From an uncultured Oscillospiraceae bacterium (GTDB taxonomy: Bacteria; Bacillota; Clostridia; Oscillospirales; Oscillospiraceae), in the NCBI GenBank assembly GCA_947625355.1, contig CANQOA010000007.1, positions 1 through 61,773 of the forward strand: a DNA stretch of 61,773 nucleotides, read 5' to 3'. The position numbers and the translations under genes are program-made. Shown piece by piece: positions 1 through 6,673 of this stretch (the stretch's first letter is position 1; the number at the start of each line of letters is the position of its first letter). The notes beneath the pieces are model-generated. The model saw only the letters and a program-made list of their open reading frames with translations, ran no database searches and was not told where the DNA came from.

Positions 1-107
1 TCGGAGGTCTCCGCTCTCTGCTCTCATATAGGGTCCACTCCGATCATGTTGAAGCTCAGCTTCTCATACCGCTCCTCACAGCCTGTCCGTCCATCCCGAT
101 CCCCCTC
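1..107. other. Left window edge, no gene assigned
   Basis: The minus strand has a short open frame here ending near position 19, but it has no usable start codon inside the window after the stop of the neighbouring gene. A 12-codon ATG frame with a weak purine-rich leader also exists. Neither can be supported as a gene. Confidence 0.3.
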
Positions 108-365
108 TCAGCCGACGCCAAAAACACCGGGGTAGTCGCGCTCGAAGCCGTCCCGATGGCCGGGGCTCAGGGCTGCCATATTCTCCATCCACCCTCTGTA
201 TGTCGCATCCGGCCATGGTGTGGGCGCCGGCGGCGCCGGGCGCATGGTCCAGGAGCCAGCCAGCAGCATGACCGCGGCCGCCGCGGCCAGGGCCAGCGCC
301 TTCGCCCGCCGGCGGAGCTTCCGCCGCCTCTGGCGGGGCCCGGCTATGACTGACCACCTGCGCAT
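108..365 (-). CDS. Small single-pass membrane protein (phage-type)
   Basis: 85 residues. The N-terminus is strongly basic (RQRRRKLRRRAK), followed by one hydrophobic segment at about residues 20-38 (ALALAAAAAVMLLAGSW), then a Pro-rich stretch and a polar tail. This suggests a type II single-pass membrane protein with a cytoplasmic basic N-terminus. An open frame extends further upstream, but the chosen ATG lies inside the 3' end of the preceding gene, giving a 22-bp overlap as in tightly packed phage operons. No family recognised; a lysis accessory or packaging-region small protein is possible but unsupported. Confidence 0.5.
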   Translation of the reverse strand: MRRWSVIAGPRQRRRKLRRRAKALALAAAAAVMLLAGSWTMRPAPPAPTPWPDATYRGWMENMAALSPGHRDGFERDYPGVFGVG

Positions 366-580
366 GTGGCTCGCACCTCCTCTGCATATCGCTCCATCGC
401 CGCCCAGGCTGTGAGCGCCTTTTCCTGCGTCAGGTGCGGGCCTGTCCGCCGGCCGCACACTGGGCACCGGATGAACCACGTCCGCGTCTCCCGCCCGTAC
501 AGCTCTTCCGCCAGGCTCCCGCATCCGCTGCACCGGGGCTGATCGAGCGCCGGTACCTCCCGCAGATCAGGCTCGTCCAT
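344..580 (-). CDS. Lar-like zinc-ribbon phage protein
   Basis: 78 residues with two CxxC pairs (CSGCG near residue 18 and CPVCG near residue 40) separated by an aromatic-rich strand (TWFIRC), then a helix ending in ALTAWAAM. This is the layout of the Lar/restriction-alleviation-like family found in phages, where a C-terminal 'A..AW' motif follows the second cysteine pair. Family members are small zinc-binding proteins; restriction alleviation is proven only for the Rac prophage Lar, so function here is inferred. Overlaps both neighbours, so it is translated from one polycistronic leftward message. Confidence 0.6.
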   Translation of the reverse strand: MDEPDLREVPALDQPRCSGCGSLAEELYGRETRTWFIRCPVCGRRTGPHLTQEKALTAWAAMERYAEEVRATCAGGQS

Positions 581-731
581 CTTCGCTGCCTCCCCGCCGG
601 GCCCGGCCCATCAGCCAGCCGATGCGCCCCACGGCCATCACCAGCGCCGCGGCGCCGATGATCGCCATCCCCGGCGCCAGCTTGTCCCATATGCCGGCAG
701 CCGCCAGCATCAGCATCTCCCAGATCATCAT
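567..731 (-). CDS. Small hydrophobic membrane protein
   Basis: 54 residues beginning MMIWEM, with two hydrophobic stretches (about residues 4-12 and 19-38, GMAIIGAAALVMAVGRIGWL) and a basic, Gly-rich tail. The start is fixed by an ATGA overlap with the stop of the upstream gene (728-730) and by AAAGGAG just before it; a competing ATG three bases upstream in another frame makes no conserved product. Size and topology would suit a holin-like or membrane-anchoring phage protein, but no family signature is visible. Confidence 0.5.
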   Translation of the reverse strand: MMIWEMLMLAAAGIWDKLAPGMAIIGAAALVMAVGRIGWLMGRARRGGSEDGRA

Positions 732-907
732 CCATTTCTCCTTTCTTTGAACACGGTACATTCCTCTCCTCGGGGGCATGTCCGCGCCCGGCCTGTCCGC
801 ATCCGGTAGGTGCAGCAGAGCATCAGCTCGTGCCCGTCCCCCACCGTCACCGTCCCGCCATACCAGCACCGCCGGCATCGCTCCAGCGGGTCCTGCCGCG
901 CCGTCAT
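728..907 (-). CDS. Cysteine-rich 59-residue phage protein
   Basis: The frame opens with ATGA overlapping the stop of the preceding gene (904-906) and closes with a TGA overlapping the start of the next, so it is translationally coupled on both sides. The product has cysteine pairs near residues 11/14 (CRRC) and 31/32, and single cysteines near 44 and 50, which could bind a metal. No named family recognised. The double start/stop overlap is the main evidence that it is real. Confidence 0.5.
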   Translation of the reverse strand: MTARQDPLERCRRCWYGGTVTVGDGHELMLCCTYRMRTGRARTCPRGEECTVFKERRNG

Positions 908-1092
908 AATGATGCCTCCCCCTGCTGAGCCGGACGGAAAACCGCCTTCCCGGCGAACATCCCGTTGAGGTAATCCACCTTCAACCGTGTTGCCAGCTCC
1001 ACTTTTTTCTCGGGCGGCAGGGTGTCCACGTCCACCAGCTCGTCGCCCACATGCACAAACGCCTTCACGGTGATCTTCTGCTGCTTTTTCAT
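904..1092 (-). CDS. Small hypothetical phage protein
   Basis: 62 residues starting MKKQQKITVKAF with GAAAGGAGG 8-12 bases upstream. The middle carries a short motif LPPEKKVELATRLKVDYLN resembling a C-terminal helical motif seen in many small Firmicute phage proteins, where a beta segment is followed by 'LP.e.r.e...rl...yLN'. No function is known to me. It heads a chain of four genes joined by start/stop overlaps running to position 108. Confidence 0.55.
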   Translation of the reverse strand: MKKQQKITVKAFVHVGDELVDVDTLPPEKKVELATRLKVDYLNGMFAGKAVFRPAQQGEASL

Positions 1093-1111
1093 CTCGCCGC
1101 CCTCCTTTCTG

Positions 1112-1309
1112 TCAGCCTATTCGCCCGCCGGGATGTCCTATGCCCGCCGGCGGCCGCCAGTCCTCCGGATACGCGATCCGGCACAGCGCCACGAACTCAT
1201 CGAAGGCCAGGTCGCCCTCCTGCTCCGCGCGGTGCAGGATCAGCTCTTTGAGCCGGGGCCCCGCGTGCTCCAACTCTGCCTTGTAAGCTTCATAGGTGTT
1301 CTCTGCCAT
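1112..1309 (-). CDS. Small acidic phage protein
   Basis: 65 residues starting MAENTYEAYKAELEHAG, preceded by AAAGGAGGGACAAC, a near-perfect ribosome-binding site that overrules a much longer upstream open frame antisense to the neighbouring gene. Predicted mostly helical with the aromatic motif CRIAYPEDW near the C-terminus. Family not recognised. First gene of the leftward cluster on this side of the DUF2513 gene. Confidence 0.5.
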   Translation of the reverse strand: MAENTYEAYKAELEHAGPRLKELILHRAEQEGDLAFDEFVALCRIAYPEDWRPPAGIGHPGGRIG

Positions 1310-1328
1310 GTTGTCCCTCCTTTCTGTC

Positions 1329-1357
1329 TTGTCCGCCTCCCGCTCCTGTGGTAGAAT
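1329..1357 (+). promoter_or_regulatory. Promoter for the DUF2513 gene
   Basis: TTGTCC and TAGAAT separated by 17 bases, about 25 bases before the ATG at 1382, which has AAAGGAG in its leader. Confidence 0.55.
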
Positions 1358-1381
1358 CAGCGCGAAAGGAGCTGAAATATA

Positions 1382-1792
1382 ATGCGCATTGACAGTGATT
1401 GTGTCCGGGACATTTTGCTCTCTGTTGAAGGTCAAACTTCCTATAGCTCCGGTATGTACTTCCGTATCGGTTACACCACATACCCAGAGCCATTGCAGAA
1501 GTACGACAGCGAAAAGCTCATGTACCATGTCCGCTATCTTCTTCTCGCCGAATACCTTTACCATCCCGACGATTCAAGCGCCTCAGCCGAGTGGATGAAC
1601 TTCGTTGACCTGACGCCGCGGGGACATGAATTTTTGAACACGATTCGTTCCCCCGTGATTTGGTCAAAGACCAAACGGATATTGGAAAAAGCCGGCGCAT
1701 TCAGCTTGAAGATCGTAGAGGCCACTGCCGAGGGCATCGCCACCGCCATTATCAAAGAGCTCACCGGTTCAAATACCTTCCTGACGCCCTGA
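1382..1792 (+). CDS. DUF2513 family phage protein
   Basis: 136 residues. The N-terminal MRIDSDCVRDILLSVE, the central YHVRYLLLAEYLY and the later LTPRGHEFLNTIRSP...W follow the DUF2513 pattern: a winged-helix-like fold with a conserved 'LT..GH.FLd.ir' motif, common in prophages and mobile elements and often next to repressors. A role in element regulation is inferred from fold and context only. The gene has its own promoter and points against the flanking genes; its stop lies 4 bases from the convergent stop at 1797. No membrane segment. Confidence 0.75.
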   Translation: MRIDSDCVRDILLSVEGQTSYSSGMYFRIGYTTYPEPLQKYDSEKLMYHVRYLLLAEYLYHPDDSSASAEWMNFVDLTPRGHEFLNTIRSPVIWSKTKRILEKAGAFSLKIVEATAEGIATAIIKELTGSNTFLTP

Positions 1793-1796
1793 CCCT

Positions 1797-1997
1797 TTAC
1801 CGCTGTTTCCTCTTGAGCTTCAATACGACCGGCAGCTCTGCCAGCGCCGCCTTGCATCCCCGTTCCAACTCGCTGTCAGTTGGTTCGGGGATCTTCTTTT
1901 CTTCCAGATACCAGTAGACGGCGCAGAACGCCACCCTGGCGATGAACCACTTGACCGCAAACACCGCCGTGGTCACCAGAAAAATAATCGTCCACAT
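1797..1997 (-). CDS. Small membrane protein after cro-like gene
   Basis: 66 residues. Residues 2-29 are hydrophobic (TIIFLVTTAVFAVKWF onward), ending in a Trp/Tyr-rich boundary, followed by a charged tail with EEKKIPEPTDSELERG and a basic C-terminus. One or two transmembrane passes are likely. AAAGGAGGTGAGAAAAGGC before the ATG fixes the start. It lies behind the cro-like gene and behind its own operator copy at 2027-2040, so it is probably controlled by the same switch. No family recognised. Confidence 0.5.
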   Translation of the reverse strand: MWTIIFLVTTAVFAVKWFIARVAFCAVYWYLEEKKIPEPTDSELERGCKAALAELPVVLKLKRKQR

Positions 1998-2026
1998 GCC
2001 TTTTCTCACCTCCTTTCTGTCGATTT

Positions 2027-2040
2027 TTGCACTACGCAAA
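2027..2040. promoter_or_regulatory. Phage operator copy (TTGCACTACGCAAA)
   Basis: An imperfect palindrome TTGCACTACGCAAA, matching the operators at 2268-2281 and 2351-2364 at 11 or more of 14 positions. It lies between the cro-like gene and the membrane protein gene. Confidence 0.5.
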
Positions 2041-2247
2041 TTATGAGGCAAAAAAATATGCCGCAAACTCCCTATCTTCTATGTCAAGAGCTCTCGCGAC
2101 CTTCTCCGCCTCATCCAGCGTGATGGGCCGTATATTGTGAATCTTCTGGTTCATCGTCGGCGTGGCAATGCCCACTGCGGCGGCGAGTTTAGCCTGTGTC
2201 ATCCCAGCCTCCTTCATTCTGTCCTTGATTGCCTGTGTGTTTATCAC
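2041..2247 (-). CDS. Cro-like XRE helix-turn-helix regulator
   Basis: About 68 residues if started at the GTG at 2247, which has GGAGGTGAT just upstream; the longer ATG-initiated frame would place this ribosome site inside the coding sequence. The helix-turn-helix is clear: MTQAKLAAAVGIATPTMNQKI, followed by a dimerisation helix with ALDIEDREF. It faces the CI-like gene across a shared operator region, the standard Cro/CI arrangement, so it probably represses at the same operators to favour excision or lytic-type expression. Confidence 0.75.
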   Translation of the reverse strand: MINTQAIKDRMKEAGMTQAKLAAAVGIATPTMNQKIHNIRPITLDEAEKVARALDIEDREFAAYFFAS

Positions 2248-2267
2248 CGATAAATCACCTCCGTTGA

Positions 2268-2281
2268 TTTGCATAGCGCAA
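2268..2281. promoter_or_regulatory. Phage operator copy (TTGCGCTATGCAAA)
   Basis: Read on the minus strand as TTGCGCTATGCAAA. It overlaps the expected transcription start of the leftward promoter, where bound repressor would block transcription. Confidence 0.55.
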
Positions 2282-2309
2282 TTTTAGCATTGTGCAAACC
2301 GTCTGTCAA
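2281..2309 (-). promoter_or_regulatory. Leftward promoter of the cro-like gene
   Basis: TTGACA (2304-2309) and TAAAAT (2281-2286) on the minus strand with a 17-base spacer, close to consensus. A degenerate operator copy (2284-2298) sits inside the spacer and a stronger one overlaps the start point. Confidence 0.75.
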
Positions 2310-2350
2310 GTAGTTTTATATAAAAATTTGCAGGGCGCTAAAAGTTTTTG

Positions 2351-2379
2351 TTGCGCTCCGCAAACATTCGTGCTATAGT
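2351..2379 (+). promoter_or_regulatory. Rightward promoter of the CI-like gene, overlapped by operator
   Basis: TTGCGC (2351-2356) and TATAGT (2374-2379) with 17 bases between. The -35 box is the first half of operator TTGCGCTCCGCAAA (2351-2364), so the repressor can occlude its own promoter. A further degenerate operator lies at about 2328-2342. Confidence 0.65.
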
Positions 2380-2405
2380 GGCTCTAGGCCAAGGAGGACC
2401 AGTCT

Positions 2406-3032
2406 ATGAATAATATTGAAATCGGCCAGCGCATCAAACAGCGCCGCCTCGATATGGATCTGACCCAGGGCGACATTGCGAACGAGATAGGCGTCGCCAT
2501 ATCTACTATACAACGCTACGAAACCGGCGCCATTGATAAGATCAAGCTCCCGGTGATCGAGGCAATCGCCCGCGTTCTGCGGGTCAATCCCGACTGGCTC
2601 ATCGGTAAATCCGACTCTCCCCTCCCCTCCAACATCATTCCCATGCCAAAGACCCGGCGCATCCCGCTCATCGGGACCATCGCCTGCGGGGAGCCCATCC
2701 TGGCAGAGGAGAACCTGGACGGCGAGGTGGACCTCCCGGAGCACATCCGGGCGGACTTCGCTCTGCGGTGCAAGGGGGATAGCATGATCAACGCCCGCAT
2801 CTTCGACGGGGATATCGTATACATACAGATCGACCGGGAGATCCGCGACGGGGACATCGCCGCCGTGCGCATCGGGGACGAGGCCACCCTGAAGAGGGTC
2901 TACCGGTACCCCTCCCGCCTGGAACTCCGGCCTGAGAACCCCACCTTTCCCGTCCTGCAGTATGAAGGGGAGCAGCTGGCGGACGTACAGATCATCGGCA
3001 AGGCCGTGGCCTTCACCAGCACGGTGAGGTGA
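2406..3032 (+). CDS. CI/LexA-like repressor with S24 peptidase domain
   Basis: 208 residues. Residues 5-65 form an XRE helix-turn-helix (LTQGDIANEIGVAISTIQRY); residues 85-205 are an S24 autopeptidase domain. The catalytic serine is S126 in KGDSM and the lysine K163 in ATLKRV. The self-cleavage site is Cys-Gly (IACGEP, residues 92-97) in place of the usual Ala-Gly, an accepted variant. The protein should keep the element silent and be inactivated by RecA after DNA damage, which would link induction to the SOS response. AAGGAGG precedes the ATG. It transcribes away from the cro-like gene. Confidence 0.9.
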   Translation: MNNIEIGQRIKQRRLDMDLTQGDIANEIGVAISTIQRYETGAIDKIKLPVIEAIARVLRVNPDWLIGKSDSPLPSNIIPMPKTRRIPLIGTIACGEPILAEENLDGEVDLPEHIRADFALRCKGDSMINARIFDGDIVYIQIDREIRDGDIAAVRIGDEATLKRVYRYPSRLELRPENPTFPVLQYEGEQLADVQIIGKAVAFTSTVR

Positions 3033-3141
3033 TTTAACCTCTATCCCCGCTGTTCCCTGGTGGTGCAATACTTACTGAGCCCTTTGAGCTGTAAAGCTCC
3101 GCTTCTCATACAAAAATCAAGACATTCGGAGGACTCCTCAA

Positions 3142-4173
3142 ATGAAAAAGCTTTTTCCCTTCTTTCTTGCGATCGTTGTGTTGCTTTCCCTTATCCCCTC
3201 CGCCTATGCCGACGCCGCCTCATCGGCCGCCTGGGATGACCTCCTCCTGGCTGACCTTGACGTCATCCCGCAGATCAGCGTGTTCTCCGCCGTCCCGATC
3301 CCAGCCTTCGTCAGTGTCGGTAGCACTGATCTCCACATAAAAAAGGGCCCCGGCAGTTATTACGATACCGTTTCGTCCGTCCCCTCCTGGGAATCGGTGA
3401 ATGTCTATGCGGATTTATTCGGCTGGGCCCTTATCTGCTATGACGGCATATGGGGCTGGGTCGAGTCCCCATATCTCATCATGGATAGCTCGGGCAGTTC
3501 ACCGGACGCTGCCGCAACAGCGACCGCTGAAAATCCTGATCCCCGACCGGCTCAAATTGACGGCTCCTCCTATGAGATCACCTACCAGAATGTTCGGGTT
3601 TTTGATGAATACGGGTATACAAAAGCTATCGTCATGATAGAAATAACGAATAACGGCACCAAAGACCTCTATCTCGACATCTGTTCTTACGACCTGGAGG
3701 ACAGCGCTGGCAGCCTGATCGCCACCGAATCAATGGTATCCTGCTTCCCGTCTGTGCTTTCTCCCGGTGAAAAGGGCTATTTGTACGAGACCTCCTATCT
3801 CGATGATTATTCGGGAGATGGGAATGTCGTTGTTCTTCCTCACCTGAGCATCGAAGATGCCACCATCAAAAACACGCGGTATCCCGTGTCTGATATTTCG
3901 ATAACCGATGACGGCTACGGCGGCATTAAGGTCCTGGGGCGCGTGGAGAATAATACAAACGAGACAGAGGACTCCCCCGAGGTCGCTGTTGTTTTTTACG
4001 ACGATAACGGCACCCCTCTCGGCCTTGACTACGATTTACTTCTTCCCTCCCTCGCTCCTGGGGATAAAACTGGATTTGAGATAAATTATGACGATCTTCC
4101 CGACGGCATCACTGCCGCACAAATCGCCGATTATACTGTCTACGCATACCCAGCGTGGCAGCTCCAGTGGTGA
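3142..4173 (+). CDS. Secreted protein with SH3b domain
   Basis: 343 residues with a signal peptide (MKKLFPFFLAIVVLLSL, cleavage expected after AYADA). Residues about 55-115 look like a bacterial SH3 domain (VGSTDLHIKKGPGSYYDTV... WGWVES), usually cell-wall binding. A low-complexity linker (~118-135) leads into two beta-rich modules (about 140-235 and 245-343) with 'ITNNGTKDLYLD' and 'VENNTNETEDSPEVAVVFYDD' strands, similar to FxLYD-type modules of surface proteins. Probable role is outside the membrane, bound to peptidoglycan. As an element cargo gene it may alter the host surface, but that is inference. Good leader GGAGGACTCCTCAA before ATG. Confidence 0.7.
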   Translation: MKKLFPFFLAIVVLLSLIPSAYADAASSAAWDDLLLADLDVIPQISVFSAVPIPAFVSVGSTDLHIKKGPGSYYDTVSSVPSWESVNVYADLFGWALICYDGIWGWVESPYLIMDSSGSSPDAAATATAENPDPRPAQIDGSSYEITYQNVRVFDEYGYTKAIVMIEITNNGTKDLYLDICSYDLEDSAGSLIATESMVSCFPSVLSPGEKGYLYETSYLDDYSGDGNVVVLPHLSIEDATIKNTRYPVSDISITDDGYGGIKVLGRVENNTNETEDSPEVAVVFYDDNGTPLGLDYDLLLPSLAPGDKTGFEINYDDLPDGITAAQIADYTVYAYPAWQLQW

Positions 4174-4208
4174 TCAGATAATATCTACAGCAAGAAAGGA
4201 GACTCCCC

Positions 4209-4511
4209 ATGTTAGAAAAACAAGACCTGCAGGCCATCAAGGAACTGATCGACACTTCCGTCACCACTGCCATCACCGCCTCCGAGGAGCGCATGTCGGC
4301 AAAGATCGACGCCTCGGAGAACCGCATTATGGCCTACATCGAGAACGCCGTCATGCCTAACTTCAAGCTGCTGGCCGAAGGCCACCAGACCTTGCTGGAG
4401 ACTCTGGCCCGGAAAGATCGAGTGGAGGCGCTGGAAGAGGAAGTCGTGTTCTTAAAATCCGTCGTCTCCGCCCTGGCCCAGGATGTGACCGAGCTGAAAA
4501 AGGCCCAATAA
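4209..4511 (+). CDS. Coiled-coil hypothetical protein
   Basis: 100 residues, charged, no membrane segment or signal. Two heptad-rich helices are visible: residues 5-50 (around EERMSAKIDASENRIMAYIE) and 70-98 (EALEEEVVFLKSVVSALAQD). AAAGGAGACTCCCC precedes the ATG. It follows the secreted SH3 protein by 35 bases in the same direction and probably shares its transcript. Function unknown. Confidence 0.6.
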   Translation: MLEKQDLQAIKELIDTSVTTAITASEERMSAKIDASENRIMAYIENAVMPNFKLLAEGHQTLLETLARKDRVEALEEEVVFLKSVVSALAQDVTELKKAQ

Positions 4512-4516
4512 AAAAC

Positions 4517-4547
4517 GCCGCCCCCGGTCTCGCACACCGGGGACGGC
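4517..4547 (-). terminator. Hairpin with U-run in minus orientation
   Basis: Twelve-base arms (one mismatch) around a 7-base loop; on the minus strand it is followed by six T residues, on the plus strand there is no T-run. It may insulate the regulator region from leftward transcription. Confidence 0.5.
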
Positions 4548-4569
4548 AACGTAGAAAACCACCCGAACC

Positions 4570-4620
4570 GCCTAGGGGATCGTCTACCCTTTTATGGTAC
4601 CATATCCCCTCAAAAATTGC
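4570..4620 (+). promoter_or_regulatory. Nested inverted repeats before recombinase 1
   Basis: The leader contains AGGGGAT ... ATCCCCT arms (about 4573-4614) enclosing a perfect palindrome ATGGTACCAT. I could not identify a confident sigma-A, sigma-E or sigma-K promoter. The repeats are candidate operator or RNA-folding sites controlling recombinase expression. Confidence 0.35.
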
Positions 4621-4632
4621 AAGGAGGACCCC

Positions 4633-6129
4633 ATGGCTGCATCCTCTCCGCGTACCGCGGCGGCCTACATCCGTGTGTCCACCGAGGACCAAGCGGATCA
4701 GTCGCCCGAGAGCCAGCTTATTGAAATACGAAAATATGCCGCCCGGAACGGCCTCATCCTGCCGGACAACCTGGTCTTTGTCGACGAGGGCATCTCCGGC
4801 AAGCGGTCCGAGAACCGGCCGGCCTTCCAGCAGATGATCGGCACCGCCAAAGAAAAGCCCGCTCCTTTCGACGTGCTTCTCCTCTGGAAGTTCAGCCGGT
4901 TCGCCCGGAACCAGGAAGAGAGCATCGTCTATAAGTCGCTGCTGCGGAAACAATGCGGCGTCGACGTGGTGTCCGTGTCTGAGCAGCTGCCCGAAGGCCC
5001 CTTTGCCTCCCTGATCGAGCGCATCATCGAGTGGTTCGACGAGTTTTACTCCATCCGCCTCTCTCAGGAAGTCAAGCGCACCATGGCCGTCAAAGCCGGC
5101 CGCGGGGAATTCCAATCCTCGCCTCCCTTCGGCTATCGGGCCCGGATCATCCCCGGGAAAAAAACGGTGTTGGAGCCCATCCCCGAGGAAGCGGAGCTCG
5201 TTCGGCAGATCTTTGACCGGTTCAACCGCGGCGAGGGAGTATACGTCATTGCCCGGTGGCTGAACTCCCTGGGGATCACCACACACCGGGGAAACGCTTT
5301 TGAGAACCGCACCGTGGAGTATATCCTTCGGAACCCGGTCTATATTGGAAAGCTCCGGTGGACACCCACGGGCCGCACCCGAAGGGACTTTTCCAACCCG
5401 GACACCATCCTGGCAGACGGCGAGCATGAGCCTCTCATCACCCAGGAGACCTTCGACACCGCGCAGACGAACATTGCCCGAATCAAGGCCGTCTGGGGTT
5501 ACAAAGCCCGTCCAACCTACGAGCTGAAGGACTGGCTCAGCGGTCTCGTCCGCTGCGCCGCATGCGGAGGCACTCTCATCTTCCAGAGACCTCACTACTT
5601 CAAGTGCAACAACTACATGCGCGGTCGATGCACCTGCTCGCAACATATTCGGATCGACTTGCTGCATGGGGCGATCACAGAGCGCCTCATGCAGGACATG
5701 ACCGGCAGCAACGCCCTGGACTGCGCTGTCGTGCAGTCGGAGGCAGAGCAAAGCGGAGAGCTGCCCCGGCTGCGCACTTCCCTCACGGATCTCCGCCGGC
5801 GTGACGCGCGACTGCTGGACGCATACCTGGGAGGCGCTGTCGACCTTGCACAATTCTCCACTGCAAAGTCCAGTCTTGACTCTGAAATCGCAGACATTGA
5901 GGAAAGGATCGCTTCTCTGGAGTCCACCACCGCAGACCCGGATGCCGTCCGTGCAGCTTTGACCTCCCGCATCCGCGAGGCTTACGATACCATCTCCGCC
6001 CCAGATGCCTCTCTGGAAGAGAAAAATACTGCGCTCCGCAATATTACGGAACGCATCACCTTTGATAAAAGCCAAATGGTCATCAATATTACATACCGTG
6101 TTTTTTGTAGCCAGTATTATAGTCTATAA
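4633..6129 (+). CDS. Large serine recombinase (integrase/excisionase) of element 1
   Basis: 498 residues. N-terminal resolvase domain has the catalytic serine S16 in AYIRVSTEDQ and the downstream FSRFARNQEES arginine motif. It is followed by the recombinase domain (about 175-285) and a zinc ribbon with CAACGG near residue 307 and CNNYMRGRCTC near 325-337, then a coiled-coil (about 375-440). This is the phiC31/SpoIVCA architecture: DNA integration and, with a directionality factor, excision. ATG 4633 is chosen because AAGGAGGACCCC lies before it; an ATG 39 bases upstream lacks a ribosome site. The stop lies one base before the palindromic junction sequence in cotJC, so this is the enzyme that made the insertion. 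No directionality factor was recognised. Confidence 0.92.
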   Translation: MAASSPRTAAAYIRVSTEDQADQSPESQLIEIRKYAARNGLILPDNLVFVDEGISGKRSENRPAFQQMIGTAKEKPAPFDVLLLWKFSRFARNQEESIVYKSLLRKQCGVDVVSVSEQLPEGPFASLIERIIEWFDEFYSIRLSQEVKRTMAVKAGRGEFQSSPPFGYRARIIPGKKTVLEPIPEEAELVRQIFDRFNRGEGVYVIARWLNSLGITTHRGNAFENRTVEYILRNPVYIGKLRWTPTGRTRRDFSNPDTILADGEHEPLITQETFDTAQTNIARIKAVWGYKARPTYELKDWLSGLVRCAACGGTLIFQRPHYFKCNNYMRGRCTCSQHIRIDLLHGAITERLMQDMTGSNALDCAVVQSEAEQSGELPRLRTSLTDLRRRDARLLDAYLGGAVDLAQFSTAKSSLDSEIADIEERIASLESTTADPDAVRAALTSRIREAYDTISAPDASLEEKNTALRNITERITFDKSQMVINITYRVFCSQYYSL

Positions 6130-6230
6130 CAGTATGGACCACCATACTGGCTGATGATATACTTGGCCATGGCGGGGTTGGGATTCTTGATCCGCACGGG
6201 ATACTGCAGCTTTTTTTCATATACGAACAT
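6117..6230 (-). pseudogene. cotJC: cotJC 5' fragment, interrupted by element 1
   Basis: Starting at the ATG at 6230, which overlaps the stop of the cotJAB fusion (TAATG), the frame encodes MFVYEKKLQYPVRIKNPN... SQYGGP, the conserved N-terminus of CotJC, a manganese-catalase-like spore-coat protein. After about 31-32 codons the frame enters the element and stops at 6117-6119. In intact homologues the sequence continues Asp-Gly-Glu-Leu. The remaining ~160 codons should be at the far end of the element, left of the window. If the element leaves precisely in the mother cell the gene would be restored; otherwise it is a broken gene. Confidence 0.85.
6130..6149. other. Element 1 / cotJC attachment junction
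   Basis: Sequence cagtatggaccaccatactg: 8-base inverted repeats around an asymmetric 4-base centre. It lies immediately after the recombinase stop and coincides with codons 28-33 of cotJC (Gln-Tyr-Gly-Gly-Pro), where homology to CotJC ends. Imperfect symmetry around a short core is typical of serine-integrase sites. The exact crossover dinucleotide cannot be read without the other end. Confidence 0.65.
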
Positions 6231-6673
6231 TACTTCTTACCTGCCTTTCCGCCGTTCCAGGGCCAGGGACCCTCGGGCCAGACCCAGCAGTCGAATTTGG
6301 CCGTGTCGGCGCGCGTCACCGGGCCGTACATCTCCACGTAGCGCTTGCGCCCCTCCTTGGCCAGGGCGCTGAAGCTCTTCCAGGTCTTGAAGGCGTCCTT
6401 GTCGTCGGGATGGGTGTCCAGGTACAGCGCCAGCTCCTGGCAGACGAAATCCAGGGCCATCAGCTCGGCCTGGGGCGTATTCTCTACAGGGCCGACGGCC
6501 ACATAGTCCATAAAGGGCAGATCCAGCCCCGGGAACAGCGTGCCCTTGGCCAGGGCGTCGGCGCTGTCATAGGCCGGCTCGCTGCACGGCTGGGTGGCCA
6601 GCATCGGCACGGCCAGCGGCGCGCAGGAGGGCAGAGCGCCCTCTTTATAGGTGCAGGAATCTTTATCTTGCAA
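6230..6673 (-). CDS. cotJA-cotJB: CotJA-CotJB fusion spore-coat protein
   Basis: 147 residues combining two proteins that are normally separate. Residues ~17-57 match CotJA (ALAKGTLFPGLDLPFM); residues ~68-147 match CotJB (LALYLDTHPDDKDAF... YGPVTR... WVWPEGPWPW). In Bacillus CotJA, CotJB and CotJC form an inner-coat complex made in the mother cell. The fused gene sits directly before cotJC with a 1-base overlap, as in a normal cotJABC operon. The only sensible start is TTG at 6673, whose Shine-Dalgarno-like AAAGGGGG lies in the 3' arm of the hairpin after ligA. An internal start cannot be excluded. Confidence 0.82.
   Translation of the reverse strand: MQDKDSCTYKEGALPSCAPLAVPMLATQPCSEPAYDSADALAKGTLFPGLDLPFMDYVAVGPVENTPQAELMALDFVCQELALYLDTHPDDKDAFKTWKSFSALAKEGRKRYVEMYGPVTRADTAKFDCWVWPEGPWPWNGGKAGKK

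Follow-up and report, generated by a model that had tools for sequence, protein, structure and literature searches.

Recombinase-carrying elements divide the spore-coat gene cotJC at recurrent sites in an uncultured Oscillospiraceae bacterium and its relatives

The cotJC gene of an uncultured Oscillospiraceae bacterium (G000) is interrupted at two exact positions by elements carrying recombinases, and their excision would quite probably rebuild this coat gene during sporulation. The gene pieces join in frame at short cores, recombinases lie at the junctions, the sites recur among relatives, the recombinases group by site, the joined element ends carry inverted repeats on average, and the split genes are under purifying selection. 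From such features we infer excision, its timing and a helper factor. Each recombinase, with a helper encoded by the element, would excise its own element in the mother cell. Precise excision of both elements would give an intact cotJC reading frame during sporulation, and the spore would retain the split form, since the mother-cell genome is not inherited.

The source genome comprises 2.1 Mb in 78 contigs, and the window, the whole stretch of 61,773 nucleotides analysed here, is the entire contig C7. The cotJ genes, which we take to form a sporulation operon, adjoin the first element (element 1), and the following features are found there:

1..6134, no strand assigned: left part of element 1, read up to the contig end
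1382..1792, plus strand: DUF2513 protein of element 1
2406..3032, plus strand: LexA/S24-type repressor-like protein of element 1 (Peptidase_S24, HTH_3)
3142..4173, plus strand: open reading frame of element 1, with an SH3_3 match below the cut-off
4633..6129, plus strand: large serine recombinase of element 1 (Resolvase, Recombinase, Zn_ribbon_recom), antisense to cotJC, with its 3' end at the junction
6135..6143, minus strand: 9-bp core GGTGGTCCA at site A, codons 30-32, common to the far junction on contig C18
6135..6230, minus strand: cotJC piece 1, codons 1 to 32, with its ATG at 6230 (PF05067 positions 1-32)
6230..6673, minus strand: fused cotJA-cotJB reading frame upstream of cotJC (Pfam CotJA 4.4e-09, CotJB 1.1e-23)

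The CotJA-CotJB reading frame overlaps the cotJC ATG by one base at 6230, and from there cotJC continues for 87 nt up to the shared core. The initial annotation had proposed that the N-terminus of cotJC is broken by an element with a large serine recombinase. Both parts are borne out: the family match covers positions 1-32 of the Mn_catalase profile and ends at 6135, and Resolvase, Recombinase and Zn-ribbon domains are found within 4633-6129. The distance from the recombinase end to the junction, given there as one base, is 5 bp, because the stop codon ends at 6129 and the core occupies 6135-6143. The recombinase has an alternative in-frame ATG at 4594.

A profile search of the genome's contigs located the rest of the gene on C18. 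The piece at C18:35266-35598 (minus strand, profile positions 30-154) follows an identical GGTGGTCCA in the correct strand sense and frame, as expected of the remainder that had been predicted. The initial annotation did not foresee that this remainder lies on a separate contig and is itself interrupted, the last piece being at C18:30964-31119 (minus strand, profile positions 148-199). These three pieces are the sole Mn-catalase matches in the whole genome, with no second copy. Both sides of the first break carry the 9-bp core and both sides of the second carry GA. Joined at both cores, the pieces, which have kept their coding sequence, form one stop-free CotJC of 200 residues, so the anticipated restoration is full-length. 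Of the compared loci without an interruption, the most similar one aligns gap-free with it over all 600 nt at 92.3% identity. The element thus lies inside a sporulation gene, with CotJA and CotJB upstream and CotJC pieces around it, and the genome encodes SpoIVA.

Both elements have a large serine recombinase near one end. What can be read of element 1 is 6,134 bp at one end, in the window, and 214 bp at the other, on C18; the assembly has a gap between the two. We infer that the left end of the window and the right end of C18 belong to one element because a congener, G016, has the same pair of ends, likewise on two contigs. G016:C6 is 97.9% identical to window positions 69-1371 and 98.2% identical to 4187-6300, a stretch that extends into cotJ, and a second G016 contig is 92.6% identical to the C18 end. 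On the G016 contigs there are genes for terminase, portal, minor and major head, scaffold, packaging and replication proteins and for an endolysin. The window itself has the repressor-like gene; the head and packaging genes occur in the G016 relative only. Element 1 is probably a prophage, given the head, packaging, replication and endolysin genes on the matching contigs. Among the matches listed, the nearest contig to element 1 is from an uncultured Oscillospiraceae metagenome-assembled genome (MAG), isolate Lapin-028. Element 2 measures 4,167 bp (about C18:31114-35280) and has its own recombinase. Its three largest reading frames encode a serine recombinase of 517 aa, an MBL-fold protein and a DUF4365 protein.

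Split cotJC genes are widespread. In the genus, 34 of 35 genomes have a PF05067 match, and eight of these genomes have cotJC in pieces (G000, G016, G022, G011, G013, G021, G030 and G031); G010, G012 and G027 are ambiguous. Across the family, 318 of 400 genomes (106 genera) have a PF05067 match. When the 104 genomes with fragment-like scores were searched again (G000 apart), 88 had at least two matches and 16 had one. The 88 split genomes are defined by profile match ranges, with joints examined in fetched loci and ten weak single hits left out of the second search. G310 was rejected as a clean split, its two pieces overlapping.

The pieces were placed on a profile built from 21 intact CotJC proteins. 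An in-frame join at codons 30-33, 58-63 or 133-136 is obtained for 59 of the 64 pairs of adjacent pieces; those dropped, for lack of a clear joint, are from G073, G249, G397, G417 and G423. For the G417 break near codon 50, no join was found. The cut sites are:

Site A, codons 30-33: QYGG/PDGEL
Site C, codons 58-63: DIG/TEELAH
Site B, codons 133-136: AA/EQKAR
Site E, codons 172-176: HFQRFGE, in two genomes (G336 and G403)

At least two bases are shared at the joint in 53 of the 59 pairs, and one or none in the other six. Such short cores, taken alone, are weak evidence. At site E, the cotJC tail is found further along the same contig and strand, beginning 23 bp (G336) and 21 bp (G403) past the end of another serine recombinase. 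This tail is present in those two genomes and in none of the fetched loci of other genomes that break at the same motif. Sites A, B, C and E all touch conserved motifs common to solved Mn catalases, and these motifs presumably hold metal ligands. The sites are also stacked: A and B occur together in G000 and G016, A and C in G183 (on one contig), and C and E in G336 and G403. In L242, a contig from a viral collection, one piece lies between sites A and C and the following one between C and B, which indicates three breaks in one cotJC. In G176:C1 (L112-L114) and G423:C122 (L115), the final cotJC piece is on the strand opposite to the first, as if by inversion between elements or assembly error.

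For 56 of the 64 pairs, three of them among the pairs without an in-frame join, a recombinase of at least 330 aa is found no more than 300 bp from the joint, and in 51 of 59 cases it points its 3' end at the junction. A tree was built from 57 recombinases: one branch (support 100/97) sets apart all 16 site-A enzymes, that of element 1 included, another (100/100) sets apart all 14 site-B enzymes, and the 27 site-C enzymes fall into two groups, of 24 and of 3. A search of named genomes with site-A enzymes confirmed at least 464 relatives. Of the 80 kept, 59 adjoin a cotJC piece and four run off the contig. The hosts include Oscillibacter ruminantium GH1, Pseudoflavonifractor gallinarum DSM 107456, P. 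phocaeensis An569 and Ruminococcus flavefaciens SAb67. When the element ends are joined (attP), the mean inverted-repeat matches are 12.2, 10.9 and 10.9 of 17 for sites A, B and C, against about 8.4 in shuffled sequences, and attP exceeds all 30 of its own shuffles in only 27 of 59 cases. Joined gene ends (attB) have 8.1-8.6 matches of 17, that is, no repeat. For element 2 the attP repeat matches at 14 of 20 positions, and for element 1 it is weak (10 of 20).

Several recombinase loci have other arrangements. In L190, L204, L205, L171, L178, L185, L195 and L202 (Blautia, Lachnoclostridium and similar), relatives of the site-A recombinase lie inside another gene. Four of the adjoining genes were tested: a peptidoglycan-binding domain is present in L185 and L202, and SpoIID is matched above the cut-off in L190 and below it in L204. 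The gene beside the L190-type recombinases is perhaps another split sporulation gene. In L061 and L062 (G123 and G246), the recombinase starts within about 240 bp after the N-terminal cotJC piece and in the same sense, so transcription of the cotJ operon could reach it. In site-C elements such as L037, L048, L053 and L058, the recombinase reading frame extends antisense about 30 bp past the joint into cotJC, and excision would therefore alter the last codons of the enzyme. The site-C element of L059 (G058) measures 2,437 bp, and the recombinase is its sole listed reading frame of at least 90 aa.

A broader reading, given slightly better than even credence, is that cotJC in Oscillospiraceae and their kin is served by dedicated recombinase systems, two or three in number, each of which is tied to the DNA of a single catalytic motif and would have to delete its element before the mother cell makes the coat protein. 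One gene would then be built by several programmed deletions.

Traces of excision and its control were sought in several ways. Sigma-E-like promoters were not in excess upstream of 53 recombinases, nor were they in the control region upstream of cotJA; the scan is uninformative. Patterns of excised attP for sites A and C had no matches in IMG/VR, and the site-A attP pattern had none in 297 loci. A looser site-A pattern matched one IMG/VR contig, which has neither a recombinase nor cotJC and was taken as a chance match. Two contigs of G010 have in common a stretch of exactly 99 bp that stops at the site-A core, and one of them continues into intact cotJC. This overlap is suggestive of a sample with both forms, through excision or strain mixture. 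The apparent mixture would also suit a switch, in which excision follows growth phase or occurs at random in all cells, independently of the mother cell. A precedent is yin, an element in yabG that was found excised at all time points (PMC10747680). Indirectly against such a switch, the split form is at least common, since 88 genomes of the family were assembled with cotJC in pieces, and this alternative is considered unlikely.

Selection bears on whether the split genes are still used. For 20 split congeneric pairs (177 codons), dN/dS ranges from 0 to 0.119. Comparisons of split with intact genes within the genus of G000 give medians of 0.049-0.112, and intact pairs have a median of 0.062 (185 of 210 pairs, the remainder being saturated or too close). 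Split and intact values are all far below 1, and some split pairs exceed the intact median, up to 0.119. Four congeneric pairs picked for a shared element have dN/dS of 0.005-0.021. In G087/G230, the shared element aligns over 4,838 bp at 84.9% identity, dN/dS is 0.005, and dS is 0.89 for the recombinase and 0.47 for cotJC. The corresponding values for G213/G335 (aligned over 4,355 bp at 78.2%) are 0.021, 1.01 and 0.72. In G198/G290 the element aligns in two stretches at about 79%, with values of 0.020, 0.77 and 0.69. Those for G123/G246 are 0.013, 0.72 and 0.79, its shared element being judged from an equal length in the two genomes (9,017 and 9,020 bp) and from the recombinases. The cotJC pieces appear to be kept intact by selection, and on these sequence comparisons the simplest reading is that cotJC stayed functional while split.

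It is quite unlikely that these are ordinary mobile elements which use conserved cotJC codons as attachment sites, leaving the gene off in carriers and back on after chance loss. In-frame rejoining follows from any site-specific insertion, so a return to frame is automatic for such elements too. The G016 counterpart of element 1 is a prophage, and relatives of the element 1 recombinase occur commonly among IMG/VR contigs. Recombinase dS falls well short of cotJC dS in 6 of 18 pairs, including 0.05 against 0.23 for element 1 of G000/G016. Recombinases younger than the host split suit mobile elements and count against the view that cotJC stayed functional while split. Those elements have moved recently, and some elements move between hosts. 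Mere mobility accords poorly with the low dN/dS in congeneric pairs whose shared elements have diverged, such as G087/G230, and with compact elements that hold one recombinase and little else, as in G058 (2,437 bp).

Assembly error, contamination or paralogue remnants could be suspected because many genomes are MAGs and the G000 pieces lie on two contigs. SpoIVA, used as a control, has a match in 330 of the same 400 genomes and a depressed score in eight. Seven of these were searched again, giving four with complementary pieces, two with single fragments at contig ends, and one with two adjacent stretches, likely a frameshift. In the RecA control, 113 of 120 genomes match, 109 with a full score and four as fragments without a convincing complementary piece. 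Contig breakage alone does not explain split cotJC, since SpoIVA and RecA are seldom broken. In addition, for 42 neighbouring pairs (G397 and G417 included) both pieces are on the same strand of a single fetched locus, separated by 2.4-19.2 kb. The split is also found in G131, a one-contig genome, and in isolates such as Oscillibacter ruminantium GH1, where a 5,215-bp element is present and the rejoined CotJC has 198 aa. Together with the single copy in G000, these cases make an artefact very improbable. The spoIVA genes in complementary pieces are those of G198, G240, G350 and G365; 46 positions are missing from the G240 pieces, and the G365:C20 pieces are 252 kb apart on one strand of one contig. 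That the cotJC pieces are expressed separately and their peptides assemble is scarcely credible, as piece 1 has 32 codons and runs into element sequence, the breaks lie within or beside the most conserved motifs, and no point in support of it was found.

Programmed excision in spore formers has been described for a handful of genes. The preferred reading, excision that rebuilds cotJC during sporulation, resembles the skin element in sigK of Bacillus subtilis and Clostridioides difficile, where a serine-recombinase element splits a mother-cell sporulation gene. In contrast, sigK encodes a sigma factor and cotJC a coat protein, and the accounts of skin drawn on here describe no multi-site stacking. 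PMC10747680 and PMC5595907 name sigK, spsM, spoVFB, gerE and yabG as targets. Like the cotJC elements, yin lies in a sporulation gene and has a short direct repeat (14 bp), and it is prophage-like, as element 1 probably is; PMC10747680 reports it as unique to one strain, with its excision shown. The gin element in gerE has a 9-bp core and, as element 2 appears to, lacks phage genes; unlike the cotJC elements, it is described in PMC5595907 as 28.6 kb long with three recombinases and demonstrated excision. SPbeta in spsM and vfbin in spoVFB are likewise prophage-like elements that split sporulation genes, but their target genes differ, and the passages of PMC10747680 that name them describe no multi-site stacking. 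A CotJC homologue adjoins a C. difficile prophage, according to PMC11222575. Judged by search entries and the opening lines of abstracts, no paper on an element in cotJC was found in the open full-text literature, a body of work that most subscription papers and preprints lie outside.

In this large family, cotJC seems to be in pieces in 88 of 318 profile-matching genomes, more than a quarter, at up to four sites and sometimes at several per gene. This provides many natural replicates for asking when such elements become fixed. Split cotJC could also mark sporulating bacteria in metagenomes, and the elements are a source of serine recombinases with predicted attB and attP sites.
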